Source of the DNA: Candidatus Desantisbacteria bacterium CG1_02_49_89
GTDB lineage: Bacteria; Desantisbacteria; UBA1551
Assembly: GCA_001871075.1 (NCBI GenBank)
Contig: MNUP01000127.1
Location: 1-9,495 of the forward strand
DNA: 9,495 nt
Direction: 5' to 3'
In this document: piece by piece, positions 1 through 9,495 of the stretch
Layout: the number at the start of each line of letters is the position of its first letter
Numbering within the stretch: the first letter of the stretch is position 1
The notes under the pieces: model-generated
The model's input: only the letters and a program-made list of their open reading frames with translations
Databases searched by the model: none
Told to the model about the DNA's origin: nothing
Made by a program: the position numbers and the translations under genes

Positions 1-618
1 TTCATTATCATACTCGTTGCTACCCATCAGGAATTCACCTGCGGGGATATAGACCATAACTGAGTTGTCTTTTTCCCAGGTGATTTCCTCTGTTTTTGCC
101 TGTGCTGGCTGAACAGCTTGAGGAGCAACTCCTGATTGTACCGGCAATCCTGCTATCTTGCTTGCAATGTTTCTCATGGAAACAAGCAAGGCGTCTTCTT
201 TGCATTTAGCGCACTCTTCTGTCTCTGCCCTTCCTATCTTGCCTGATTGCACATCAATAATTTTAAGGGTTACAACATAGGTAGCGCCTATTTTGGTAAT
301 TACGCCCGCAAACATCTTACGCACGCCCAAAAGCTGACCTGCCTGAACAATACATTCGTTGCTTGTGCAGCCTGAGAGCTGGAGCTTCTGCTCTTTCAGG
401 ATATCTTCCATATTCTCACGCGTAACTATGTCAAACTTCTGCGTGTTGATAAGCTGGACCCTCAGGTAATCTGAAAGTGACGCAGCCACCCCGGCAGAAA
501 CTCCTTCCTTTGCCTCCATGTCCATCACTGCAGCGGTTGTCTTCTGGATACCTGTCTGTTGAGCGCCCAGCCCAAAAGCAACGAACAACAAAACCAAAAA
601 GATACATAGCTTCCTCAT
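1..618 (-). CDS. Exported CsgG-like protein with C-terminal FGE-sulfatase domain (3' end outside window)
   Basis: Partial gene: the first 206 codons are present and the frame is still open at the window edge. Translation from the ATG at 618-616 starts with a signal peptide (MRKLCIFLVLLFVAFGLGA). Residues 28-150 resemble the CsgG/TolB-N-like fold of lipoprotein-associated proteins, with VMDMEAKEGVSAG, LSDYLRVQLINTQKFDIVTRENM, an LSGCTSNECIVQAG cysteine pair and GQLLGVRKMFAGVITKIG. A CAKC motif is at 136-139. After a Gln/Ala/Pro linker (160-176) the protein enters MVYIPAGEFLMGSNEYDNE (188-206), the typical opening of a formylglycine-generating-enzyme/SUMF1-like domain. A strong AGGAGGT at 624-630, five bases upstream, fixes the start; an overlapping frame starting with GTG just upstream is a shadow. 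In family terms CsgG-like domains act in the envelope. FGE-like domains either oxidise sulfatase cysteines or serve as non-catalytic modules, and which applies cannot be told because the catalytic part is missing. Confidence 0.85.
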   Translation of the reverse strand, partial: MRKLCIFLVLLFVAFGLGAQQTGIQKTTAAVMDMEAKEGVSAGVAASLSDYLRVQLINTQKFDIVTRENMEDILKEQKLQLSGCTSNECIVQAGQLLGVRKMFAGVITKIGATYVVTLKIIDVQSGKIGRAETEECAKCKEDALLVSMRNIASKIAGLPVQSGVAPQAVQPAQAKTEEITWEKDNSVMVYIPAGEFLMGSNEYDNE

Positions 619-630
619 CTTGCACCTCCT

Positions 631-657
631 AAAAAATAGGGACAGCCCCCATTTTTT
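631..657. repeat. Imperfect 27-bp inverted repeat next to the ribosome binding site
   Basis: Seven bases at each end are perfectly complementary (AAAAAAT and ATTTTTT) around an imperfect GGGACAGCCCCC core. The dyad directly abuts the AGGAGGT ribosome binding site of the CsgG/FGE gene, on the 5' side. It resembles the GGGACAG-type intergenic repeats common in metagenomic bacterial genomes. In the leader RNA it could fold next to the ribosome binding site. That regulatory role is inference. Confidence 0.55.
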
Positions 658-705
658 ATTCCCTTTTTTTAAGGTAAATGCAGAATCTAAAATTTAGGAT
701 TGCTT

Positions 706-729
706 CCCCGCCACAATTATTGGCGGGCT
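706..729. repeat. CCCGCC/GGCGGG palindrome, copy 1 of a dispersed repeat
   Basis: CCCGCC at 707-712 pairs with GGCGGG at 722-727 around a nine-base loop. Read on the minus strand, its sequence nearly matches the palindrome at 8500-8524: both begin AGCCCGCCAATA and end GTGGCGGG, differing in the loop. The two copies have opposite orientation, consistent with a small dispersed palindromic (REP-like) family. On the minus strand it is not followed by a T run, so it is a poor intrinsic terminator. Confidence 0.6.
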
Positions 730-756
730 GCAATAACAACTAAAATCACTCTGTCC

Positions 757-776
757 TCTCCCTTTATAAAGGGAGA
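757..776. repeat. Perfect 20-bp palindrome
   Basis: The ten bases TCTCCCTTTA are followed at once by their exact reverse complement TAAAGGGAGA. No spacer separates the arms, so this is a two-fold symmetric site or cruciform rather than a normal RNA hairpin. It lies in the gap between the glycosidase gene and the CsgG/FGE gene. Its function is unknown; a protein-binding site or a dispersed palindromic repeat are both possible. Confidence 0.6.
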
Positions 777-795
777 TTTATAACCACTGCAATTG

Positions 796-811
796 GCAGG
801 GCAAGCCCTGC
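796..811. repeat. Short perfect inverted repeat GCAGGGC-AA-GCCCTGC
   Basis: Two seven-base arms are perfectly complementary with only two bases between them. It is one of five dyads packed into 631-849 and has no T run on either side, so it does not look like a terminator. Confidence 0.5.
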
Positions 812-828
812 AGCTACCTTAACTTTTC

Positions 829-849
829 CGCCCGTCTTTGCAGCGGGCG
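829..849. repeat. Hairpin CGCCCG/CGGGCG downstream of the glycosidase gene
   Basis: Six-base GC-rich arms (829-834 and 844-849) enclose a nine-base loop. Read on the minus strand it is the first stable hairpin after the glycosidase stop codon at 904-906. It could slow RNA polymerase or protect the 3' end of the transcript, but no T run follows, so a rho-independent terminator is not supported. Confidence 0.45.
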
Positions 850-880
850 AGACTGCGCCCCGATTGATATCGGTACTGGC

Positions 881-912
881 AACCTTTAACCCTTTTAACC
901 TTTTTAACCTTT
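881..912. repeat. Short tandem array (AACCTTT type) containing the glycosidase stop codon
   Basis: Units beginning AACC repeat with spacings of 7, 9, 9 and 7 bases (AACCTTT, AACCCTTTT, AACCTTTTT, AACCTTT). The array supplies the last codons and the TAA stop (906-904) of the beta-mannosidase gene. The same unit, more regular, recurs at 7006-7040 and 7381-7415. Confidence 0.75.
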
Positions 913-3492
913 AACGGTAGTTGAAGGCGCGTTAACCGCATCAAGACGCAGATCTGGTGCAGGCCTGTCTTTGATGCCGGGGCGGGTCGTTTCGTTCTTT
1001 TTGAAGGCCCTGAACTCTATCAGCGCCTTTTCACCCGGGAAGATCGTCCTGTAATTATTTAAATGTGAAAGCGCCCATTTGTGGTCTGTATTGAACAGCC
1101 GCACTGCAACAGCCGCGTATTTCCCCGTATTTCTGACATTTATCATGCTGCCGGCACGCTGTATTGAAAGCCGCGCCTGCGGAAGAGCGCGCAGGAAATT
1201 CAGCGGATTTTTTACGTTGTTTGAAAACGCGTAAACATTGCCGCACACAGGTTTTCCCCCTCGTTCTACCCTGATGTCCGCAAAGAAAACACCGCGCGGC
1301 ATATTCTTGGCCTTCCACTCAAAAACCCCGATCTCCTGCGAAAAAAGCCTTTTTAAGGCGGTGCCGAACATATTTCCCGCGATCACCTTTCCGGATATGT
1401 CCCGCAGAAAAACCTTTACGACGATATTTCCCGGCAGGGCTTTTTTACAGTGCAGGAATATTGTCCCTTTGAAGGTCTCTCCCGCAGCCCAGCCGAGTTT
1501 TTCGTATTTCATCGAAACGTGGAACCTTCCAAACGCTTTCTGTATGCCTGAATACGCCATCTTGGTATGGCCGAAAGCGTCTATTATGGAATTATTCGCT
1601 GTGTTCAGGAAAGGCTCATTGCCTGCCCAGTACATTATGCCCGAGCAGTTGAAAGCGCGGCGCAGACAGGATTCGGTGGAATACCGCAGGGATTCGAATT
1701 GCAAATACTGGCTGCATTTCACGAACTTCTCTATCTCGTTTCTTTTCTCGTCCCACTTGCCGAACATCTGGCCCATCATCTCAGGTATTATCCACCACGC
1801 CCCGTGATGCACCCACTGGGGATTTTCTTTGCGCGGCGGCCAAATTTTTTCTTTCCTTGTTATATATTGCAGCGATGAAAGATCAGCAGCTCCGGGTGAA
1901 CCGGTCTCAAACCTTGCAAGCGAATCGTCCTTGTTGAAATAATTATAATGGGTTTTTTCACCCAGGTACATCCAGGGGCCGTGGACCTCGTAGTGAATGC
2001 CTTTGCCATACTGGTTCTCATGCGCGTAACCGGTAGGGCCGCTCGCGCTTGTGGGCAGGAACCATTTTCCCGGGTCAAGCCTCCTGCAAAGATTTCCAAG
2101 CGCCCTTATGCAGGGATACGACTCATCCACAGGTTTCCCTTTCCTGCTCATCAGCTCGTTGCCGCAGTCCCAGACAGCAGAGCTCACGTGCCATCCCCTT
2201 CTCCTTATATAGATCCCGGCGATCTTTACCAGTTTGTCTATCATTGTACGGTTCCCGACAGGAAGGTTTGAAATGCCGCTTGATGACTGGGGGAACTCTT
2301 GTAACACCATAAGCCCCATTTCATCGCAGAGGTCAAAAAAGACCTCCTTTTCAAGTATAGCTCCGCCCCAGACCCTGATGATGTTGCAGCCCATCGTTTT
2401 GAACTGGGCAAGCTCTGATCTGTAAAGCGACTTATGCGCTGCCCCGTAAAAAGGCACAGGCACCATCCAGTTCACTCCCTGGATAAAGACTTTTTTTCCG
2501 TTTATCTTCAGGGTGTATGGCGACGCCTTCGCAGGCGCGTTCTCGTTCTTTGCAATCTCTATTTTTTTGAAGCCTACCTTTTTATTTACCGTATCCAGGG
2601 CCTTTCTCCCCTTAACGAGCTCAACCGAGATATTATATAGTTTCTGCGCTCCGTAACCGTTAGGGAACCACGCTTTTATCCTACCCGCGGAGAAACCGCG
2701 GCTGAATTTGTTATTCCCTTTTGAGATTTTCAGCGGAAAAACCTTTGCGGCGATTTTCTTATTACCATCGTCCAATGTCACGCGCAGGCCCGCGCTCATA
2801 CCGGCTGAGGACCAGATGGTCCCGCTTAGATGCATTTCTCCCTTCGCGCCGCCTGCAAGCCCGGTCCTTAAAAATATCTCTTTCAAATGCGCGGTATCAA
2901 CCGCCTTGATGAAAACGCTGTCCCATATGCCGGTCGGCACAACCCTCGCGCACCAGTCCCATATGTAGTTGAACCTGGACTTGAAATGCTTCACCCTTTC
3001 CGTCCAGCCGAACTGCCCGTATTCCTCGGGTGTCTGGTAAAAAACAACGCTGAGCAGATTTTCCTTGCCCCAGAGCGCTTCCTTCGTGATATCCACCCGC
3101 ACAGGCACGAACATCCCTTCGAATTCAGCCAGCTTCTTTCCGTTCAGGATTATCTGGCCGTAATAATCCAGGCCCAGGAAATTCAGGATGAGTCTTTTAC
3201 CCTTGAACGCATTTTTCAGGCGGAATTTTTTTTCATATATCCACTCCCTGTGCTCGGTCCACTCCTGCAGGAAGCTGTTCTTGTCAATATCCACCTCGGA
3301 GATAACGCCAGCCCGGATAAGGTCCGTCTGCACGCTGCCGGGCACCTCTGCCTTTACCGCGGGCACAGGCAGGTCAGGCACGCCGGTCATGCACGCTGTC
3401 TTCTGCCACCTCCACTGGTGCGGCCACCATCCTGCCACTTTCCAGTCTTTCCCGTCCAGCGACTGTATATTTTTCCCGCGGATCATATCCAT
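904..3492 (-). CDS. GH2 family glycoside hydrolase, beta-mannosidase type
   Basis: This encodes 862 aa from the ATG at 3492-3490, which has AAGGAG five bases upstream; a TTG one codon earlier is less well spaced. Such enzymes hydrolyse terminal beta-mannosyl (or related) residues with retention. Residue numbers below count from that TTG. The N-terminal sugar-binding beta-sandwich domain covers about 15-200, with VPGSVQTDLIRAGVI and FNYIWDWCARVVPTGIWDSVF, the equivalent of the beta-mannosidase GWDWGP...GIW stretch. An immunoglobulin-like domain follows to about 310, then the TIM barrel with FIQGVNW and IIRVWGGAILEKEVFFDLCDEMGL. The likely acid/base is Glu447 in WDCGNEL and the likely nucleophile Glu530 in ARFETGSPG. 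MYWAGNEP (621-628) matches the family's YW..N motif, and about 655-863 is a C-terminal beta-rich region. Length is normal. There is no signal peptide, so it is probably cytoplasmic and acts on imported oligosaccharides. Substrate is uncertain, since FETG deviates from the usual SEFG. The final VKG-stop comes from the tandem array. Confidence 0.88.
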   Translation of the reverse strand: MDMIRGKNIQSLDGKDWKVAGWWPHQWRWQKTACMTGVPDLPVPAVKAEVPGSVQTDLIRAGVISEVDIDKNSFLQEWTEHREWIYEKKFRLKNAFKGKRLILNFLGLDYYGQIILNGKKLAEFEGMFVPVRVDITKEALWGKENLLSVVFYQTPEEYGQFGWTERVKHFKSRFNYIWDWCARVVPTGIWDSVFIKAVDTAHLKEIFLRTGLAGGAKGEMHLSGTIWSSAGMSAGLRVTLDDGNKKIAAKVFPLKISKGNNKFSRGFSAGRIKAWFPNGYGAQKLYNISVELVKGRKALDTVNKKVGFKKIEIAKNENAPAKASPYTLKINGKKVFIQGVNWMVPVPFYGAAHKSLYRSELAQFKTMGCNIIRVWGGAILEKEVFFDLCDEMGLMVLQEFPQSSSGISNLPVGNRTMIDKLVKIAGIYIRRRGWHVSSAVWDCGNELMSRKGKPVDESYPCIRALGNLCRRLDPGKWFLPTSASGPTGYAHENQYGKGIHYEVHGPWMYLGEKTHYNYFNKDDSLARFETGSPGAADLSSLQYITRKEKIWPPRKENPQWVHHGAWWIIPEMMGQMFGKWDEKRNEIEKFVKCSQYLQFESLRYSTESCLRRAFNCSGIMYWAGNEPFLNTANNSIIDAFGHTKMAYSGIQKAFGRFHVSMKYEKLGWAAGETFKGTIFLHCKKALPGNIVVKVFLRDISGKVIAGNMFGTALKRLFSQEIGVFEWKAKNMPRGVFFADIRVERGGKPVCGNVYAFSNNVKNPLNFLRALPQARLSIQRAGSMINVRNTGKYAAVAVRLFNTDHKWALSHLNNYRTIFPGEKALIEFRAFKKNETTRPGIKDRPAPDLRLDAVNAPSTTVKG

Positions 3493-3508
3493 CAAAACTC
3501 CTTTTCGC

Positions 3509-3538
3509 CACTGAGTTCACTGAATTCACTGTCGCCAC
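3509..3538. repeat. Nine-base tandem array (CACTGAGTT type)
   Basis: CACTG recurs every nine bases (CACTGAGTT, CACTGAATT, CACTGTCGC, then CACT). It starts six bases upstream of the AAGGAG ribosome binding site of the glycosidase gene. Its unit differs from the array at the other end of the same 98-bp gap. Confidence 0.6.
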
Positions 3539-3563
3539 TTCGGCGACCCGCCGATGAGGCGGG
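3531..3563. repeat. Two adjacent hairpins (GTCGCC/GGCGAC and CCCGCC/GGCGGG)
   Basis: GTCGCC (3531-3536) pairs with GGCGAC (3542-3547) over a five-base loop. CCCGCC (3547-3552) then pairs with GGCGGG (3558-3563) over GATGA. The stems share base 3547. The second stem has the same arms as the palindromes at 706-729 and 8500-8524, suggesting one repeat family with different loops. No T tract follows in either direction. Confidence 0.6.
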
Positions 3564-3574
3564 ACACGCTTTAA

Positions 3575-3605
3575 ACTGGATACTGGACACTGGTTACTGG
3601 TTACT
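3575..3605. repeat. Heptamer tandem array (ACTGGTT type) spanning a stop codon
   Basis: Four units of seven bases (ACTGGAT, ACTGGAC, ACTGGTT, ACTGGTT) are followed by a partial ACT. The stop codon of the URO-D-like gene (3596-3594) and its last three codons (Ser-Asn-Gln) are inside the array. A related TGGTTAC-type array flanks the other end of the same gene at 4681-4708. Confidence 0.78.
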
Positions 3606-4664
3606 AAAGTCCCTGCCCGCTTCCAGCATCGCAAGGTAATTTTTAACCGGGATGTAATTCGCGACTGTGTTACCTGTGCCAAGCGCGTAACCGCCGCCGG
3701 GCGCGCACTTCTCAAGTATGTTGCGCGTGTATTTCTTCACTTCGTCTTCCGTGTGCCTGCACAGGAAATCAACGTCAACGCCGCCAAGTATCGCGATGCG
3801 CTTTCCGTATTTCTTTTTCGCCTCTGTGACCGGAAGGATAACGTCCTCCCAGGAATGCTTCGCGTCTATCTTCACGTAATCGATAAGGTCATCCATTATC
3901 TCCTCAAGATTGCCACAGGAGTGGATTATGAAAGGCAGGTTATATTTGTGCGCTACCTCGGCGGCTTTTTTCTGCCAGGGAAAAATATATTCGCGCATTG
4001 CCTTGGGGCTTACCATTATCGAGGTCTTGAACCCCATATCGTCCCCAATAACCAACCCTCCCACATTGGGGAGCTTCGCAGCCCTTTCAAAAACAGCGCA
4101 TATGGTGGCTCCGACCTTATCCGAAATATCCCTGACCAGGTCCGGTTGCTCGAAAAGCATGTATGAAAATATTTCGTAGCCGGTAAGCCACATCACGTTC
4201 TCAAGCACCCCGCCCGGGCCGTTGAAAAGGAGCTTCATCCCGTCAGGCACGTTCTTTGCCAGGAATTCAACCCACCTGAAATCCGCTTTTGACGCGTCCG
4301 GCCAAAGGTACTTATCGTAGCTCTTCCTGTCCTCGATCTCCCCGTGATGCTCGTCCTGCCAGCCTCTTGCCGCGTGCGGCAGATTTGCCGTGTCAGCCGC
4401 GGAAAGGATATTTGAGCGCTGGAAACCTAAAGGGCAGGGAGCAGGAACGTAATCATAACCGAGGTCAACGTAGAATTTTATCATCGCCTTATAATATTTC
4501 TCCCATCCTTCAGCCGTGTTCTCAAGGGTATATTTTGTCATCGGTTCGCCTGTCACCGCTTCCATTATCTCTATGTCAGCGAACAGTTCGTAGAACGGTA
4601 CTTTGTCGGGTTCCCCCTTACGTAACAGGACCTTACGCAGTCTCTCAAAGTTTGGTTGGTTCAT
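3594..4664 (-). CDS. URO-D/MtaA-family protein, probable methyltransferase-like (paralogue A)
   Basis: This encodes 356 aa from the ATG at 4664-4662, with AAGGAG five bases upstream. The uroporphyrinogen decarboxylase superfamily fold is shown by IGDDMGFKTSIMVSPKAMREYIFPWQKK (207-233), IIHSCGN (246-252), KHSWED and ILGGVDVDFLCR, and a C-terminal CAPGGGYALGTGN (320-332). True HemE-specific N-terminal motifs are not seen, so it belongs with the non-haem branch that includes corrinoid/coenzyme M methyltransferases. His248 and Cys250 match the His-x-Cys zinc ligands of those enzymes. Where MtaA-type proteins have a third cysteine ligand near the C-terminus, my hand alignment gives Thr330, so zinc binding is uncertain. 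No signal peptide, so cytosolic. It is nearly the same as the gene at 5921-6991 from residue 229 on. It lies 98 bp upstream of the glycosidase. The substrate is unknown; a methyl-transfer role is family-based inference. Confidence 0.85.
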   Translation of the reverse strand: MNQPNFERLRKVLLRKGEPDKVPFYELFADIEIMEAVTGEPMTKYTLENTAEGWEKYYKAMIKFYVDLGYDYVPAPCPLGFQRSNILSAADTANLPHAARGWQDEHHGEIEDRKSYDKYLWPDASKADFRWVEFLAKNVPDGMKLLFNGPGGVLENVMWLTGYEIFSYMLFEQPDLVRDISDKVGATICAVFERAAKLPNVGGLVIGDDMGFKTSIMVSPKAMREYIFPWQKKAAEVAHKYNLPFIIHSCGNLEEIMDDLIDYVKIDAKHSWEDVILPVTEAKKKYGKRIAILGGVDVDFLCRHTEDEVKKYTRNILEKCAPGGGYALGTGNTVANYIPVKNYLAMLEAGRDFSNQ

Positions 4665-4680
4665 GTTTACTCCTTATTTT

Positions 4681-4708
4681 TGGTTGCTGGCTACTCGTTA
4701 CTGGTTGA
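4681..4708. repeat. Heptamer tandem array (TGGTTAC type)
   Basis: Four seven-base units (TGGTTGC, TGGCTAC, TCGTTAC, TGGTTGA) fill the centre of the 68-bp gap between the AT-rich pseudogene and the URO-D-like gene. The array begins five bases upstream of that gene's AAGGAG ribosome binding site. The unit is related to the array that carries the same gene's stop codon. Confidence 0.7.
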
Positions 4709-4732
4709 AAATCTTATGGAATCATTGCATTT

Positions 4733-5714
4733 TTATTGATCTTTTTCAAAAAAGACCCTTTTCTTTTGTTCGACTATTTTCTTTGCATTCGATTCGCCCA
4801 TATTGCTTGCAATAAACCATGAAGGAACAGCAATAAGAGGATAAGCCCAATACCATGTAAAACCAAATATTGCAGCAGCAGGAATAGCCTCAATCACTAT
4901 CGTTGTTTGCGCAAGCGAAATACCTTCTTTTCTTATTTCATCTTTCTTTGCTTTTAAAAAAACATTTTCTTCATTTATGCTGCCTTTTAAAACAATTTTG
5001 GGCGTGAAATAATTTGATGAATAATCTTTCGTGTTTTCACTTGTTAAATCAAAGATCATCATTTTTTGTATTTCCTCATTAACCTCTTTCATCATTTTTG
5101 CAATAAGCCTTTTTAATATCTTTTTTTCCTCAAAAGAAATCGGATTTGCCACTATCTCTTCTTTTGTTTTTAAACTACATTTATCAACCCATATAATTGA
5201 TGAAGTATTTATATCTATAAGTAATAATTTAAAAATAGATTCTACCGTATATTCGAGCAGAAAAACGCCTTTTCTAATAGTATCGAATCTCCATTTTTCA
5301 ATTTTTCCACAAAGTAGGACGTTAACTTTAAGCTCATCCGCGATTGCTCTGCTTATTGTGTCATTTACACTGCTATTCTCAAATTGCTGAAGAAGATTAA
5401 ACGGCACTTCTTTAACTTCCTCAAAAACATTGCTCTGAGTGAATTGATTTACCAGGGCTTTCGTGAATTCCTTATTAAAAGGAACCGAAAAAATAACGGA
5501 ACAATCATTTTCATTGCGACGATCTTCAAATCTTAAAACACCTACTTTTAAAGGAATCGGGGGGGGTTTCATATTTAAGTGACGTAGCTGTATAATATAT
5601 ACGAGACTGCATATCATAATAGGAACAAAAAGAAAAGGAAAAACACTGCTGCGAAAAAAACAGCAGTATAAATAAAAAACTAATTATTTTTATTGCCTTT
5701 ACAATTTTAGACAT
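4733..5714 (-). pseudogene. AT-rich exported protein, frameshifted at a run of eight C
   Basis: A start at 5714 with GAGGAA upstream gives MSKIVKAIKIISFLFILLFF, a clear signal peptide. Cys24 or Cys30 might be lipidated but neither has a canonical lipobox. The frame runs to LKYETPP and then meets C8 on the minus strand (G run at 5559-5566), after which it ends within about ten codons. The next frame continues smoothly from the same point as PIPLKVGVLRFEDRR to a stop at 4733. With seven C the two parts join into one 326-aa protein. The body reads like an envelope lipoprotein of the CsgG/TolB-N type (KVGVLRFEDRR, FTKALVNQFTQSNVFEEVKEV). Near the C-terminus a hydrophobic stretch (VIEAIPAAAIFGFTWYWAY, then PLIAVPSWFIA) could be membrane-inserted. 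I do not recognise a named family. The gene is far more AT-rich than its neighbours, which suggests transfer. It may be a real pseudogene, a phase-variable gene or a sequencing error. Confidence 0.72.
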
Positions 5715-5773
5715 TCTTATTCCTCAATAGTATACTAACCAAATTTTACATTATGAGGATAAGTTGTCATTTC

Positions 5774-5820
5774 AAATCCCCCTCTTTCCCCCTTTTTCAA
5801 AGGGGGATGCAGGGGGATTT
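5774..5820. repeat. 47-bp cruciform repeat (CCCCCT/AGGGGG)
   Basis: The outer arms AAATCCCCCT (5774-5783) and AGGGGGATTT (5811-5820) are perfect complements. The inner arms CCCCCTTT (5788-5795) and AAAGGGGG (5799-5806) are also perfect, with a TTC loop and a four-by-four internal bulge. It sits between the URO-D-like gene and the AT-rich pseudogene. This form of palindrome is a familiar dispersed intergenic element in many environmental bacteria. It could fold in RNA from either strand, but no uninterrupted T run follows it. Confidence 0.75.
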
Positions 5821-5825
5821 CCCTT

Positions 5826-5875
5826 ATCCACATATCCACTTATCTACTTGTTTGCTAACCACTGACCACTCACCG
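5826..5875. repeat. Two adjoining tandem arrays, period 8 then period 7
   Basis: ATCCACAT, ATCCACTT and ATCTACTT (5826-5849) repeat every eight bases. Five bases later CTAACCA, CTGACCA and CTCACCG (5855-5875) repeat every seven. Two unrelated or drifted units side by side, next to the cruciform at 5774-5820, make this gap almost wholly repetitive. Confidence 0.6.
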
Positions 5876-5896
5876 CATAAAGCGAGTCCCCCTTCT

Positions 5897-5914
5897 TGCT
5901 TTCCTGAGAAAGCA
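5897..5914. repeat. Hairpin just after a URO-D-like gene
   Basis: TGCTTTC (5897-5903) pairs with GAAAGCA (5908-5914) over a four-base loop, and further CCCT/AGGG matches lie outside. On the minus strand it begins within about ten bases of the stop codon at 5923-5921. No T run follows it, so it is more likely an mRNA 3'-end hairpin or a repeat than a rho-independent terminator. Confidence 0.5.
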
Positions 5915-5920
5915 GAGGGA

Positions 5921-6991
5921 TCACTGACCACTGAATTTACGGCCTTCATCTAACATAGCAAGGTAGTTCTTAACAGGGACGTAATTGGTAACGGTGTTTC
6001 CTGAGCCAAGGGCGTAACCGCCGCCAGGCGCGCACTTTTCAAGCACGTTGCGGGTGTATTTCCTGACCTCGTCCTCGGAATGCCTTGCAAGGAAATCCAC
6101 GTCAACGCCTCCTAATATCGCTATGCGCTTGCCGTAGATCTTCTTCGCCTCTGTGACCGGAAGTATAATGTCCTCCCAGGAATGCTTGGCGTCTATCTTA
6201 ACGTCGTCTATAAGGTCGTCCATTATCCCGGCCAGGTTCCCGCAGGAGTGCAGGACAAAAGGGAGCTTGTTCTTATGCGCCACTTCAACCGCCTTTTTCT
6301 GCCAGGGAAAAACATATTTTCTGAAAAAATCCGGCGCGAACATCGTGGAGGTCTTGTATCCCATGTCATCCCCCATCCTCATAGCTCCCATCACAGGGAT
6401 CTTTGATATGATCTCATCAGCGTAGATCCTGTAAGCCCCGGTCTTGTTGAACATATCCTCAACGAGCTTGGGGTCGTCGTGAAGCGCCATTGAAAGCGGC
6501 ACGAATCCCATAAGCCCTGAGACCTGCTCAAGGATACCGCCCGAGATCCCGCCTATGACCTTCATCCCTTCAGGCAGGACCTCTGCCAGGATCTCAAAGT
6601 GGGAGAAATCAGTGCATTTCTCAATAGCAGGCCAGGGGTATCTTTCGAAATCCTGCCTGTTCTTTATAGGACCTGAGTTTTCATCAGCCCAGCCGCGCTT
6701 TCCGTGCGGCATCTGCGCGGTGTCATCCGCGGCAAGGACGTTGTCCCTGGGAAAGTTAAGGCCGATCTCAAGCGGAACGTAGTCGTAACCAGTATCCGCG
6801 TAGAACTTGACCAGCGCCGTGTAATATTCTTTTTTGCCTGGTACTGTACTTGTGTCTATTTTTGACATCTTAATGCCGGTGACCGCTTCATAAATTTCCA
6901 CGTCGCAGAAGTGCTCGTAAAACGGCATCCAATCCGGTTCACCTTGCCTTAATAGTACCTTGCGCATACGTTCGAAGTTGGGCTGGTTCAT
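5921..6991 (-). CDS. URO-D/MtaA-family protein, probable methyltransferase-like (paralogue B)
   Basis: This encodes 356 aa from the ATG at 6991-6989, with AAGGAG five bases upstream. It shares length, ribosome-binding-site spacing and the opening MNQPNFER-RKVLLR-GEPD with paralogue A. Family motifs are MGDDMGYKTSTMFAPDFFRK (206-225), VLHSCGN (246-252) with the His248-x-Cys250 pair, KHSWED, ILGGVDVDF and CAPGGGYALGSGN (320-332). By hand count about 84% of residues 229-356 match paralogue A but only about half of 1-228 do. The two therefore probably keep a common catalytic and metal-binding half and differ in the half that shapes the substrate pocket. Ser330 stands where MtaA-type enzymes place a third cysteine ligand. 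Cytosolic, no signal peptide. The tandem array at 7006-7040 lies directly upstream of its ribosome binding site. The methyltransferase role is family-based inference; the substrate is unknown. Confidence 0.85.
   Translation of the reverse strand: MNQPNFERMRKVLLRQGEPDWMPFYEHFCDVEIYEAVTGIKMSKIDTSTVPGKKEYYTALVKFYADTGYDYVPLEIGLNFPRDNVLAADDTAQMPHGKRGWADENSGPIKNRQDFERYPWPAIEKCTDFSHFEILAEVLPEGMKVIGGISGGILEQVSGLMGFVPLSMALHDDPKLVEDMFNKTGAYRIYADEIISKIPVMGAMRMGDDMGYKTSTMFAPDFFRKYVFPWQKKAVEVAHKNKLPFVLHSCGNLAGIMDDLIDDVKIDAKHSWEDIILPVTEAKKIYGKRIAILGGVDVDFLARHSEDEVRKYTRNVLEKCAPGGGYALGSGNTVTNYVPVKNYLAMLDEGRKFSGQ
5922..5935. repeat. Two-unit heptamer repeat (CACTGAC type) at a stop codon
   Basis: CACTGAC and CACTGAA are two seven-base units encoding the last residues and most of the TGA stop of the second 356-aa URO-D-like gene. 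The unit resembles the CTGACCA units at 5855-5875, so the array may once have been longer and been interrupted by the hairpin segment at 5888-5920. Confidence 0.5.
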
Positions 6992-7005
6992 GTCTGCTCC
7001 TTCTC

Positions 7006-7040
7006 GGTTAAAGGTTAAAGGTTGAAGGTTAAAGGTTGGA
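7006..7040. repeat. Heptamer tandem array (GGTTAAA), five units
   Basis: There are five seven-base units: GGTTAAA twice, then GGTTGAA, GGTTAAA and GGTTGGA. The array occupies the gap between the stop of the four-helix-bundle pseudogene (7045) and the AAGGAG of the next URO-D-like gene (6997-7002). The reverse-complement unit forms the array at 7381-7415, so the pseudogene is bracketed by inverted copies of one array type. Confidence 0.82.
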
Positions 7041-7044
7041 AACC

Positions 7045-7355
7045 TTACGAAACATCTTTTGTTCTGACCCTTGCCTTTATTTTTGACTTCTTGAGATAAT
7101 CAATAAGATTGAATAACATTGAGCTGATTATCCGGCACATTTCTCTCAGTTCACGATAACAGGCTTCATCAATATATTTTTGGTCTAAAGCAACCGTCAA
7201 TTGCGCTCTTACCTCGCTGCAGGAACCTTAGCCCGCCTTATCTGATCCGAAAGCCAATAGTCTTTTGAAAATAAATTACCTTTTATAATATCGTAAATTC
7301 TATTTGACAAGCTCCTGGCCATTTTATAAACATCCATTTCTTCAACATTTTTCAT
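7045..7355 (-). pseudogene. Decayed four-helix-bundle protein (23S rRNA intervening-sequence family)
   Basis: The first part, from ATG 7355 to a TAA at 7211-7209 (48 aa), reads MKNVEEMDVYKMARSLSNRI and then SDQIRRAKVPA, the hallmark start of the PF05635-type four-helix-bundle family. One base out of frame, EVRAQLTVALDQKYIDEACY and later MLFNLIDYLKKSK continue the same family to a stop at 7047-7045. The middle block expected between them, roughly Ile-Pro-x-Asn-Ile-Ala-Glu-Gly through Gly-Ser-x-x-Glu (about 28 residues), is missing. An internal deletion that also shifted the frame explains this. The family's biochemical role is not well defined; members are small proteins found in rRNA intervening sequences and, very often, as stand-alone genes in environmental genomes. 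It is more AT-rich than its neighbours and sits between inverted tandem arrays. Confidence 0.82.
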
Positions 7356-7380
7356 TAAGCCCTCTTTTTTTCTTTTTTGC

Positions 7381-7415
7381 TTTAACCTTTAACTTTTAAC
7401 CTTCAACCTTTAACT
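7381..7415. repeat. Heptamer tandem array (TTTAACC), five units, containing a stop codon
   Basis: There are five seven-base units: TTTAACC, TTTAACT, TTTAACC, TTCAACC and TTTAACT. The TGA of the 352-aa URO-D-like gene (7405-7403) and its last three codons (Val-Lys-Gly) lie in the array. The unit is the reverse complement of the one at 7006-7040 and matches the array at 881-912. Confidence 0.82.
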
Positions 7416-8461
7416 ATCAGTTTGCAGGACAGCGCTTCTTCGTACACGGCCAGGATATTCTCCACCGGGGTGTCAGGCTGGATGCAGTGAGCTGGCGAGA
7501 AAATGTACCCGCCGCCTTTCGCTATAACGTCCAGGCGGTGGCGCGCTTCCCTTCTGCAATCCTCAACGGTTCCGTGCGGCAATGTCTGCTGGGTGCTTAT
7601 AAGCCCGCAGAACGCGAGCCTGCCTTTGCATATCTTCCTTATTGTTTCAGGGTCCATTCCCGGAGGTTCTGGCTGCATCGCGTCCAGCACGTCCAGGCCC
7701 ATTTCAATGAATGTCGGCATAATATCGTGCGTGTCGCCGCAGGAATGCATCATCGCTTTCGCGCCGAACTCGTGCGCGAGATCATAGAACTTCTTAAGCC
7801 GCGGCAAGAAAATCCTGTCAAAGACCCGGGGGGAAACAAGCCTTCCCTTCTGCGTGCCGCAGTCCTCCCCAAGACAGACTATATCTATCTTTCCCTTCCC
7901 TGCCTGCAGGCCGCGCTTGATCTCTTCGTAACAAAAATCCACGCGCTTGTCTATTACTGCTATCCCGACCTCGTCTTCAAGCGCGATATCCGTCAGGACC
8001 TGTTCCATTCCTCTGCCCCTGGACACGCCGTTGACTATGTCCGGGGTGCCTGCGCCTCCAAGGCAGACCGCGAAATCTTTATTCTGCCCGCATTGCTGCT
8101 CTATGGCCGAAAAATCGTAATCGTTTATGTCAGGCCAGGGATATTTCCCGAGATCGTCCATTGTCTTTATGCGCGCAAGCCCCAGGTCAGCCGCCTCGTC
8201 ATAAACGCCGAACTCGTTCTTCTGCCTGCGGTAACCCGTGCCCCAGATGTCGTAGTAAAGGCCGTCCTTCGGCTCTTTGACCTTTCCTTTCCAGGCTGGG
8301 CCCACGCTCCTGAAATCTATGCCGAATACCTCAAGCAGATCCCTGCCCTTAAAATGTTCGGACAGGCGCTGCGAGATCTCCGGTGTCAGGTAGATCTGCA
8401 AAGGGACCCTGTCCGGCTCTTTCCACGCCAGCGATATTTTTACGCGTTCTTTTGAATTCAT
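7403..8461 (-). CDS. URO-D/MtaA-family protein with His-Ser-Cys and C-terminal His-Cys motifs
   Basis: This encodes 352 aa from the ATG at 8461-8459, with GAGG four bases upstream (a modest site). It belongs to the URO-D superfamily but is only distantly related to the other two copies. Visible blocks are SLAWKEPDRVPLQIY (10-24), DIWGTGY (71-77), KYPWPDIND (106-114), LGEDCGTQKGRLVSPRVFDR (197-216), MMHSCGDTHDIMPTFIEMG (237-255) and GGGYIFSPAHCIQPDTP (316-332). His239 and Cys241 match the zinc ligands of corrinoid/coenzyme M methyltransferases. His325-Cys326 lies where those enzymes have their third, cysteine, ligand, so this copy is a better zinc-site candidate than the 356-aa pair. Cytosolic. 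Length is typical for the family. The natural end was probably near EEALSCK; the final VKG-stop is contributed by the tandem array. No corrinoid-binding partner is encoded in view. The substrate is unknown. Confidence 0.85.
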   Translation of the reverse strand: MNSKERVKISLAWKEPDRVPLQIYLTPEISQRLSEHFKGRDLLEVFGIDFRSVGPAWKGKVKEPKDGLYYDIWGTGYRRQKNEFGVYDEAADLGLARIKTMDDLGKYPWPDINDYDFSAIEQQCGQNKDFAVCLGGAGTPDIVNGVSRGRGMEQVLTDIALEDEVGIAVIDKRVDFCYEEIKRGLQAGKGKIDIVCLGEDCGTQKGRLVSPRVFDRIFLPRLKKFYDLAHEFGAKAMMHSCGDTHDIMPTFIEMGLDVLDAMQPEPPGMDPETIRKICKGRLAFCGLISTQQTLPHGTVEDCRREARHRLDVIAKGGGYIFSPAHCIQPDTPVENILAVYEEALSCKLIVKG

Positions 8462-8499
8462 CGAACCTCAAAAAAATTTAGCCACGGATTTCCCCCTGT

Positions 8500-8524
8500 A
8501 GCCCGCCAATATTCGTGGCGGGCT
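8500..8524. repeat. AGCCCGCC/GGCGGGCT palindrome, copy 2 of a dispersed repeat
   Basis: Eight-base arms (8500-8507 and 8517-8524) are perfect complements around a nine-base loop. The sequence is almost the reverse complement of the palindrome at 706-729. It lies in the 215-bp gap between the truncated phosphatase-like gene and the 352-aa URO-D-like gene; that gap holds no gene on either strand. Confidence 0.62.
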
Positions 8525-8535
8525 CAACGCAGGGA

Positions 8536-8569
8536 CCTTCGGGTCAGAACCAAGCTGATGACCCTACGG
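8536..8569. repeat. Imperfect hairpin GGGTCA/TGACCC
   Basis: Arms at 8536-8546 and 8559-8569 match at nine of eleven positions, with the inner six (GGGTCA/TGACCC) perfect, around a twelve-base loop. On the minus strand it lies in the leader region of the 352-aa gene. No ligand-binding RNA class is recognised. Confidence 0.4.
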
Positions 8570-8580
8570 CACGGATTTCA

Positions 8581-8616
8581 ACTTTGTAAACTATATAAAC
8601 TCTGTAAACTTTGTAA
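8581..8616. repeat. Nine-base tandem array (ACTTTGTAA), four units
   Basis: ACTTTGTAA, ACTATATAA, ACTCTGTAA and ACTTTGTAA follow each other without gaps, and a partial ACT follows. The period is nine, not the seven seen in most other arrays. It is in the gap downstream of the truncated phosphatase-like gene. Confidence 0.75.
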
Positions 8617-8644
8617 ACTGCATTTGCAATTACGGATTTTTTGC

Positions 8645-8672
8645 GATGCACGAAGAACGATGCACGATGAAC
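8645..8672. repeat. Heptamer tandem array (GATGCAC type), four units
   Basis: GATGCAC, GAAGAAC, GATGCAC and GATGAAC form four seven-base units. On the minus strand the array starts a few bases after the TAG stop (8679-8677) of the phosphatase-like gene, again placing a heptamer array at a gene's 3' end. Confidence 0.72.
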
Positions 8673-8676
8673 GAGT

Positions 8677-9402
8677 CTACCAGAGTGGCGGCTCGTACGG
8701 CCTGGTGAGCGGGTGTCCGTCAAGCGGCGGCTGGATCTTCGACAGGTCAACCCCGAACCTGTCAAGTATCGTCGGCGTGATGTCGGCCCGGATGCCGCGC
8801 CGCATAACTTTAGGGTCGTTGGTCGCCAGGAACACATACGGAGCGTCCCCGTGGCCTGTTAATCCCTCGTCGAACCCGTGGTCCGCTGTCACGTAGATCA
8901 GGGTCTTGTCGTAAATGCCCAGCTCTTTTAATTTTTCCATGATCTTTCCTGTCCCGGAATCATCGGATATATACGCGTCGTTTGATTCCTTTGAGTTCTC
9001 CCCGTATTTATGGCCCTGCGCATCTATTTCAGCGAAGTGCACGAACATGAAAAAAGGCCTGTTTGCGTTCTGTCCCAGAAGCTCGATCGCCCTTTCCACG
9101 ACCTTTTCATTCTTAGTAAGGCCGTTCTCGAAAAGGTCCATTCCCTGGCTTGCGTTGTAATACGGTTTGCCCTGCACAACAAAATATGTCTTGCCATCTT
9201 CGGCAATTATTTTGCCGTCTGACTGCTTTTTTTGCAGCAACTTTCCTTTCTGCTTTTCGTTTTTTATCTCCCTTTTCACGGGAGCGTCAGCGTCCACGTG
9301 GCCTTTTTTACCTATGACAGCTGCAGTGAAAAAATCCTGGGGGGAAAAATACTGCTCAAGCCGCTCAAATACGGTGTATCCCTGTGGTATGGGCTGGTAC
9401 CT
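8677..9402 (-). pseudogene. 5'-truncated alkaline-phosphatase-superfamily protein
   Basis: An open frame on the minus strand reads RYQPIPQGYTVFERLEQYF from 9402, then VIGKKGHVD, GKPYYNASQGMDLFENGL, FFMFVHFAEIDAQGHKYG, DKTLIYVTADHGFDEG, GHGDAPYVFLATND and ADITPTILDRFGVDL, ending in EPPLW at 8677. These are C-terminal blocks of alkaline-phosphatase/phosphodiesterase-superfamily proteins. Asp and His in EIDAQGH, Asp-His in TADHGF and the later GH are expected metal ligands. The N-terminal half, with the first metal-binding Asp and the nucleophilic Ser/Thr, is absent. Upstream of RYQPIP the frame soon reaches a TGA (9414-9412), and the sequence there looks like an intergenic repeat, not coding. 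The GTG at 9297 lacks a ribosome binding site and would fall inside the conserved domain, so it is not taken as a start. Probably a remnant left by insertion or deletion at about 9403-9412. The remnant should be inactive. Confidence 0.75.
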
Positions 9403-9495
9403 AGTATGGTGTCACATAAATCCCTTGACATTTGATTCTGCTTTGAGTTGTCATTGCGAGCGACCAAAGGGAGCGTGGCAATCTCGATTTTTAGG
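9403..9495. repeat. Dispersed intergenic repeat abutting the truncated gene
   Basis: The segment ends with TGTCATTGCGAGCGACC, AAAGGGAGCGTGG and CAATCTC (about 9449-9485), a form of short palindromic repeat commonly seen between genes in environmental bacteria. Its ATTGC and GCAAT ends are complementary. Between it and the gene remnant is a non-coding stretch containing TAGTATGGTGTCACATAA (9402-9419). The junction with coding sequence at about 9403-9412 may mark one end of an inserted element, but the other end is outside the window, so element identity is not established. Confidence 0.5.

Follow-up and report, generated by a model that had tools for sequence, protein, structure and literature searches.

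Tandem repeats with a 7-bp unit have been reported from bacterial genomes piecemeal so far, under names such as STRR, LSSR, TAACTGA, GGGAATC and 'global regulator' sites, with slippage or regulation guessed as their cause. In Xanthomonas, the GGGAATC heptamers form 70-75 inverted pairs (PMC4692102). The intervening sequence (IVS) in the 23S rRNA of Coxiella burnetii carries an S23 gene, has a 28-bp terminal stem and shows tandem GACAGAT heptamers before the S23 start; S23 is described there as a homopentameric ring (PMC4990558). The solved S23 relatives 2gsc and 2rld likewise contain five chains each. We analyzed a 9,495-nucleotide stretch of DNA from Candidatus Desantisbacteria bacterium CG1_02_49_89 (contig MNUP01000127.1, positions 1 to 9,495; hereafter the window), in which an earlier note had pointed out a different short tandem array, mostly heptameric, in nearly every intergenic gap. 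After analyzing these arrays, we consider that most of them are probably complete or decayed ends of small mobile elements carrying either an S23 gene or a GxxExxY gene. To our knowledge, S23 has remained without an assigned function since the discovery of the rRNA intervening sequences.

In the gap at 6992-7402 of the window, a broken S23 gene (PF05635) is enclosed by inverted AAAGGTT arrays at 7006-7037 and 7380-7414. Apart from the broken gene, the element at 7006-7414 has the S23/IVS-type arrangement of an S23 gene between complementary ends. It lies between two protein genes and not inside a 23S rRNA gene, and is therefore not an IVS in the strict sense. The host genome encodes nine other S23 genes, and six of the nine stand between close inverted arrays with a different unit each (AGTGGTC, ACGACGT, GGTCATG, AGCTCAT, AACGTGT and AATTTAC types); of the remaining three, one is accompanied by direct 8-mer arrays (L081), one has no arms (L085) and one is cut by a contig end (L086). 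We sampled 557 kb of this genome, about 22% of its 2.48 Mb (150 contigs, the window being contig 125), with gene calls made as simple open reading frame (ORF) calls. Inverted flanks were found around 3.4% of all 439 sampled ORFs compared with 2.4% in the control. Since ORFs in general show so little excess, the link between arrays and genes is gene-specific.

The same arrangement was found across phyla. Scanning of GTDB contigs yielded 80 S23 loci, 79 of which were given a flank test, from Bacteroidota, Verrucomicrobiota, Planctomycetota, Acidobacteriota, Fibrobacterota, Pseudomonadota, WOR-3, FCPU426 and others; counts were not corrected for phylogeny. An inverted repeat was sought between the 200 bp upstream and the 200 bp downstream of the gene, and flanks paired across loci served as the control. 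Inverted flanking repeats occurred at 63% of the 79 loci compared with 3.2% in the mispaired control, and direct ones at 11%; they were mostly period-7 arrays with a unit of the locus's own. An independent S23 set gave inverted ends at 21 of 29 loci (control, 0.4%). Among 192 genomes, a spaced five-unit pattern was present at least three times in 41 of the 70 with S23 and in 13 of the 122 without it (Fisher p = 2e-12, uncorrected for phylogeny). The sole same-order relative of the host, G001, has almost no such arrays in 89 kb and no S23 in its genome. Where both neighboring genes were co-directional, S23 ran with them at 49 loci and against them at 7, and the element arm started a median of 4.5 bp past the upstream stop codon and ended about 10 bp before the next ORF. 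As a separate observation, type I-D CRISPR operons on plasmids from two genera, Pseudanabaena and Anabaena (L299 and L301), have a heptamer-armed S23 gene placed between cas6 and cas4.

A second gene family behaves similarly. GxxExxY genes (TIGR04256; Pfam PDDEXK_3, nuclease-like) are framed by inverted arrays at 17 of 25 loci, compared with 7.7% in the control. Their arms consist of three units of 8-10 bp, for example CACAGAGGCACAGAGACACAGAG or CGCAGATTACGCAGATT, and include the types CACAGAGG and CACGGATTA. Chains of CRC words were present in 14 of the 17 GxxExxY arms but in not one of 50 S23 arms. Conversely, 35 of the 50 S23 arms contained period-7 AG chains, and no GxxExxY arm did. There are thus two classes of element, and the class of the array tracks the enclosed gene.

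Comparison of plasmids provided filled and empty sites. All 11 plasmid S23 loci examined, ten of them cyanobacterial, have inverted arms, as does one GxxExxY locus. In plasmid C of Trichormus variabilis, the joined flanks of the element match six element-free plasmids (three of which were read) at 97-98% identity. The empty site is GTTAAAAAGTAATTAACAAATA, and the filled site is GTTAAAAAGTAAT, followed by 423 bp and then by GTAATTAACAAATA, which places the element between exact 5-bp direct repeats (GTAAT...GTAAT). A related element, with an S23 protein 79% identical and the same arm type, occupies a different site in plasmid a of Nostoc ATCC 53789, between TTCTA...TTCTA. The sister plasmids b and c lack it at that site, and one gene beyond it plasmid c carries a different S23 element whose arms have the AAAAGGG unit. 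In a different context, genome G017 has an S23 element between DUF1385 and prfA, and six same-order relatives have no S23 there. The S23 class thus combines terminal inverted repeats, an empty site and a target-site duplication, the last in two related elements with 5 bp each. For the element of the window itself, no close relative having an empty site was found. These filled and empty sites with their direct repeats demonstrate insertion of S23 elements on plasmids, and therefore the arrays arrive as the ends of an inserted element.

Alternatively, a heptamer-armed hairpin might be the basic element, spread by another enzyme, with S23 and GxxExxY as passengers inserted in its loop. Gene-less hairpins are indeed common, and at the Trichormus site Brasilonema pBOCT2 carries one with the same arm type (L313). 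Nostoc C052 has a truncated S23 there (L312). However, the array class follows the enclosed gene, and the two elements with 79%-identical S23 proteins share an arm type at different sites, so arms and gene have traveled together. We therefore regard the passenger scheme as unlikely.

Genome-wide, the sample contained 236 arrays with units of 6-12 bp, 140 of them heptameric; because several sampled stretches had been picked for AACCTTT arrays, these densities are perhaps somewhat high. The check proposed in the earlier note, enrichment over shuffled DNA, came out in its favor: the 79 kb of intergenic DNA held 83 arrays of period 7, 29 of period 8, 26 of period 9 and 13 of period 10, against practically none in third-order Markov shuffles. 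No arrays of periods 2-6 were found in these 79 kb. At least one array was present in 115 of the 183 gaps of 120-520 bp. Heptamer arrays peak sharply in length, with 69 of the 140 at 30-32 bp and only three longer than 45 bp; 9-mers prefer 39-40 bp, 8-mers 34-35 bp and 10-mers 28-29 bp. Inverted array pairs were well above control, both in the host genome and at S23 loci.

These properties do not suit a preferred 7-bp step of polymerase slippage that would make the arrays and leave the nearby genes incidental, slippage being one of the two makers suggested in the earlier note. Heptamers are the commonest repeat class in many genomes, and slippage has been proposed for them (PMC4679880; PMC4692102). 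Copy number does vary, as between L308 and L304, closely related elements at one site with left arms of three and five units, and between Coxiella strains (PMC4990558). Nevertheless, the sharp length mode, the lack of 2-6 bp microsatellites, the inverted pairing and the framing of S23 and GxxExxY genes all speak against slippage as the maker, and as the origin it is contradicted by the filled and empty sites and their 5-bp direct repeats. The proposal for long repeats with 5-11 bp units is reportedly due to Mrazek and colleagues. Such LSSR 5-11 repeats are expected to have open-ended copy number and no tie to genes, and the present arrays show neither property. Slippage as the origin is therefore very unlikely, and as a later modifier of array copy number it is likely, judging from L308 and L304. 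Together with exchange between arms, it may also keep the two arms of one element alike.

The units themselves differ between neighboring gaps, as the earlier note had claimed, yet they form recurring families, since the AACCTTT unit alone (2.5 units, at most two mismatches) occurs at 77 places in the genome compared with one for the reversed pattern. With many unit families and a unit of its own for each element, the arrays are not copies of one transposed sequence; here the note was right, as it was in proposing a locus-independent process and a kinship with the heptameric repeats of cyanobacteria. In genome G004 (L100-L103), the arrays are all of period 7, of AACCTAT/GGTTATG and ACCCTTT types, in stretches chosen around matches. 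We claim no conserved core of the unit, because a fixed AG or AGT core failed twice: AG columns were no more conserved than others in the host genome, and a backward-read control was nearly as common across all genomes (1464 vs 1858). An exact mirror order of units between arms gave a weak signal only (mean z 1.15, alignment-biased).

In placement, 37% of gap arrays in the host genome have a stop codon no more than 15 bp away, compared with 15% at random, and no excess of gap arrays was found at its start codons. Four stop codons of the window (904, 3594, 5921 and 7403) fall inside an array or at its edge, and a fifth, at 8677, is 3 bp away from one. Positions near stop codons and within operons would also be expected of binding sites or RNA structures selected to regulate the neighbors, through a global regulator, translational control or 3' ends, and earlier authors interpreted the paired sites of Geobacter (PMC2700814) and the TAACTGA arrays (PMC4679880) in this way. 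However, the units differ at each place, the presence of arrays is polymorphic between closely related plasmids, and the framed S23 and GxxExxY genes are of no regulatory kind. Selection for regulation thus appears quite improbable as the source of the arrays.

Another candidate mover is a host Y1 transposase, of the kind associated with REP sequences, or a reverse transcriptase. Y1 has ten matches in the host genome, which also encodes a single, partial reverse transcriptase, and S23 is distantly related to Avd, the partner of a reverse transcriptase. However, Y1 transposase genes bring their own inverted repeats, which are REP-like and non-heptameric and flank 18 of the 29 genes; the heptameric arrays frame S23 and not a Y1 gene, as a REP-RAYT system would require. 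No reverse transcriptase was detected in the array-rich genomes G017, G019 and G002, and this absence speaks against that enzyme as the mover. Movement of the arrays by either host enzyme is accordingly hard to credit. The window contains, at 634-660, a REP-like sequence (AAAATAGGGACAGCCCCCATTTTT) akin to the inverted repeats around host-genome Y1 transposase genes (L055:3680-4345; L043:6573-7268).

Array sequence is present in all six gaps between the seven genes of the window. A mismatch-tolerant scan found four arrays of period 7 (0.00 expected from first-order Markov resampling), two of period 8 (0.05) and three of period 9 (0.05); TRF was also run. The features are as follows.

881..912, minus strand: array of mixed 7/9-bp units, mainly 9-mer, AAAGGTT family on the minus strand; overlaps the stop codon of the GH2 gene 904-3495 (TRF and scan).
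3509..3531, plus strand: three 9-bp units, CACTGAATT, resembling the three-unit arms of the GxxExxY type (TRF and scan).
3575..3605, minus strand: 31-bp S23-type heptamer array AGTAACC AGTAACC AGTGTCC AGTATCC AGT (minus strand); overlaps the stop codon of the URO-D gene 3594-4664 (TRF and scan).
4681..4708, minus strand: degenerate heptamer array of the same family as 3575..3605, just upstream of the start of 3594-4664.
5823..5849, minus strand: array of 8-bp units, AGTGGATA type (TRF and scan).
5855..5875, minus strand: short degenerate heptamer stretch, AGTGGTC family.
5922..5935, minus strand: AGTGGTC family, two heptamer units, located where 5921-6991 has its stop codon.
7006..7037, plus strand: AAAGGTT array, S23-type element arm, inverted to 7380-7414 and 15 bp upstream of the start of 5921-6991.
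7111..7343, minus strand: broken S23 / four-helix-bundle gene (PF05635), in pieces 7111-7230 and 7227-7343.
7380..7414, minus strand: second S23-type element arm, AAAGGTT on the minus strand; overlaps the stop codon of 7403-8461.
8580..8619, minus strand: array of about four and a half 9-bp units, AGTTTACAA, which resembles the S23 type.
8644..8674, minus strand: 31-bp heptamer array, CGTGCAT / ACGATGC family; its end is 3 bp away from the 8677-9297 stop.

The arrays thus stand where the earlier note had listed them, with two corrections: the one at 881-912 is mainly 9-mer, and those at 4681-4708, 5855-5875 and 5922-5935 are degenerate or short and were missed by TRF. By resemblance, on which this sorting is based, the array at 3509-3531 looks like the GxxExxY type and most of the others like the S23 type. 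Several further observations concern the same gaps. At 8490-8580, a nested insert some 70 bp long (CCCCCTGTAGCCCGCC...ACCCTACGG) apparently divides a CACGGATTT array; inserts of this type recur in other gaps, and we read them as a sign of nested intergenic elements. At 5880-5920, a short hairpin insert (TTGCTTTCCTGAGAAAGCAG) breaks the AGTGGTC array, and words like it are present in further gaps of this genome. A 294-residue ORF at 4733-5617, without any Pfam match, has arrays on either side.

Overall, we propose a putative model for the origin of these arrays. A complete element of the main class measures about 0.4 kb and consists of an arm of four to five units of 7-9 bp, an S23 gene and the same arm inverted, the unit being common to both arms of one element and different between elements. 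Such elements insert between operon genes beside the upstream stop codon, usually with S23 in sense. Loss of the gene would leave a hairpin of two arms, and decay or nested insertion would leave single arms. The second class has three units of 8-10 bp around a GxxExxY gene. The S23 ring would bind about five units, as a stem or a duplex, and take part in insertion. The S23 pentamer, and likewise GxxExxY, may bind the arms and drive or aid insertion, acting in trans when a copy has no gene. Hairpins without a gene, and single arms, would either be served in trans or be remnants. The unpaired arrays of the host genome, whose origin is judged by resemblance because no inverted partner was detected within 150 bp, presumably descend from the same source as the paired ends.

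Several findings weigh against this model. The 5-bp target repeats were resolved at two sites only, in elements related to each other. About three quarters of the host-genome arrays have no detectable inverted partner within 150 bp, and the genome has only ten S23 and five GxxExxY genes for hundreds of arrays. The armless L085 is matched by about a third of the 79 surveyed S23 loci, and arrays are present in some genomes without S23 (G047, G065, G108 and G052). The S23 element contains no recognised transposase, and we know of no catalytic domain for mobility in S23. Nevertheless, we still favor mobile elements as the probable source of most arrays. We also speculate, far more tentatively, that S23 and, separately, GxxExxY could be the mobility proteins of a new kind of transposable element, the S23 ring reading a stem of about five 7-9 bp units by spacing or shape, not by a set sequence, and inserting with a 5-bp stagger beside stop codons in sense, and that such elements may have seeded the heptamers of many phyla, rRNA intervening sequences included.

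The mobile-element reading offers an origin for puzzling 7-bp repeats in many bacteria. If it is true, it would explain much of the intergenic DNA of candidate phyla, and also how operons (nrd, suf, CRISPR-cas, prfA) come to contain small S23 and GxxExxY genes. The origin of the repeats and the function of S23 would then merge into one problem, namely whether S23 or GxxExxY moves DNA and how arrays of free sequence are recognized. A literature search that covered few of the subscription papers returned no paper tying such arrays to S23 or GxxExxY outside rRNA, and we do not assert priority.

In REP-RAYT systems, the RAYT is a Y1 transposase and each REP a single palindrome. Like these systems, the present elements have a small gene framed by inverted repeats and many gene-less copies around the genome; unlike them, they carry S23, without a known catalytic domain, and their arms are tandem arrays with locus-specific units. 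In Geobacter metallireducens, three to five tandem units of 7-8 bp form opposite-strand pairs at variable distance, much as here, although those sites were interpreted as IHF/HU-type global regulator sites (PMC2700814). The TAACTGA repeats of Beggiatoaceae are likewise heptamer arrays scattered between the genes of one genome, with two to six units each, but have one fixed unit near start codons, and related heptamers are rarely repeated (PMC4679880). The STRR and GGGGA(C/T)T / GGGAATC repeats of cyanobacteria and Xanthomonas share the intergenic position nearer the 5' ORF, the usual number of about four units and some inverted pairs; they were described there as repeats with a fixed unit, were not assigned to mobile elements, and were reported without any link to S23 (PMC4692102). 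The tandem heptamers between our genes agree with STRR in kind, whereas in place of one or a few fixed units per genome there are many families. In the Coxiella IVS, finally, S23 lies within complementary ends with a stem of about 28 bp and in sense orientation, and the sequence is thought to be selfish (PMC4990558). The IVS resides in rRNA and is cut out by RNase III, whereas the present elements, which occur on plasmids as well as in many phyla, have protein genes on either side and arms made wholly of arrays with locus-specific units. With these differences, the present elements look like the same kind of element as the Coxiella rRNA intervening sequence, found outside rRNA.

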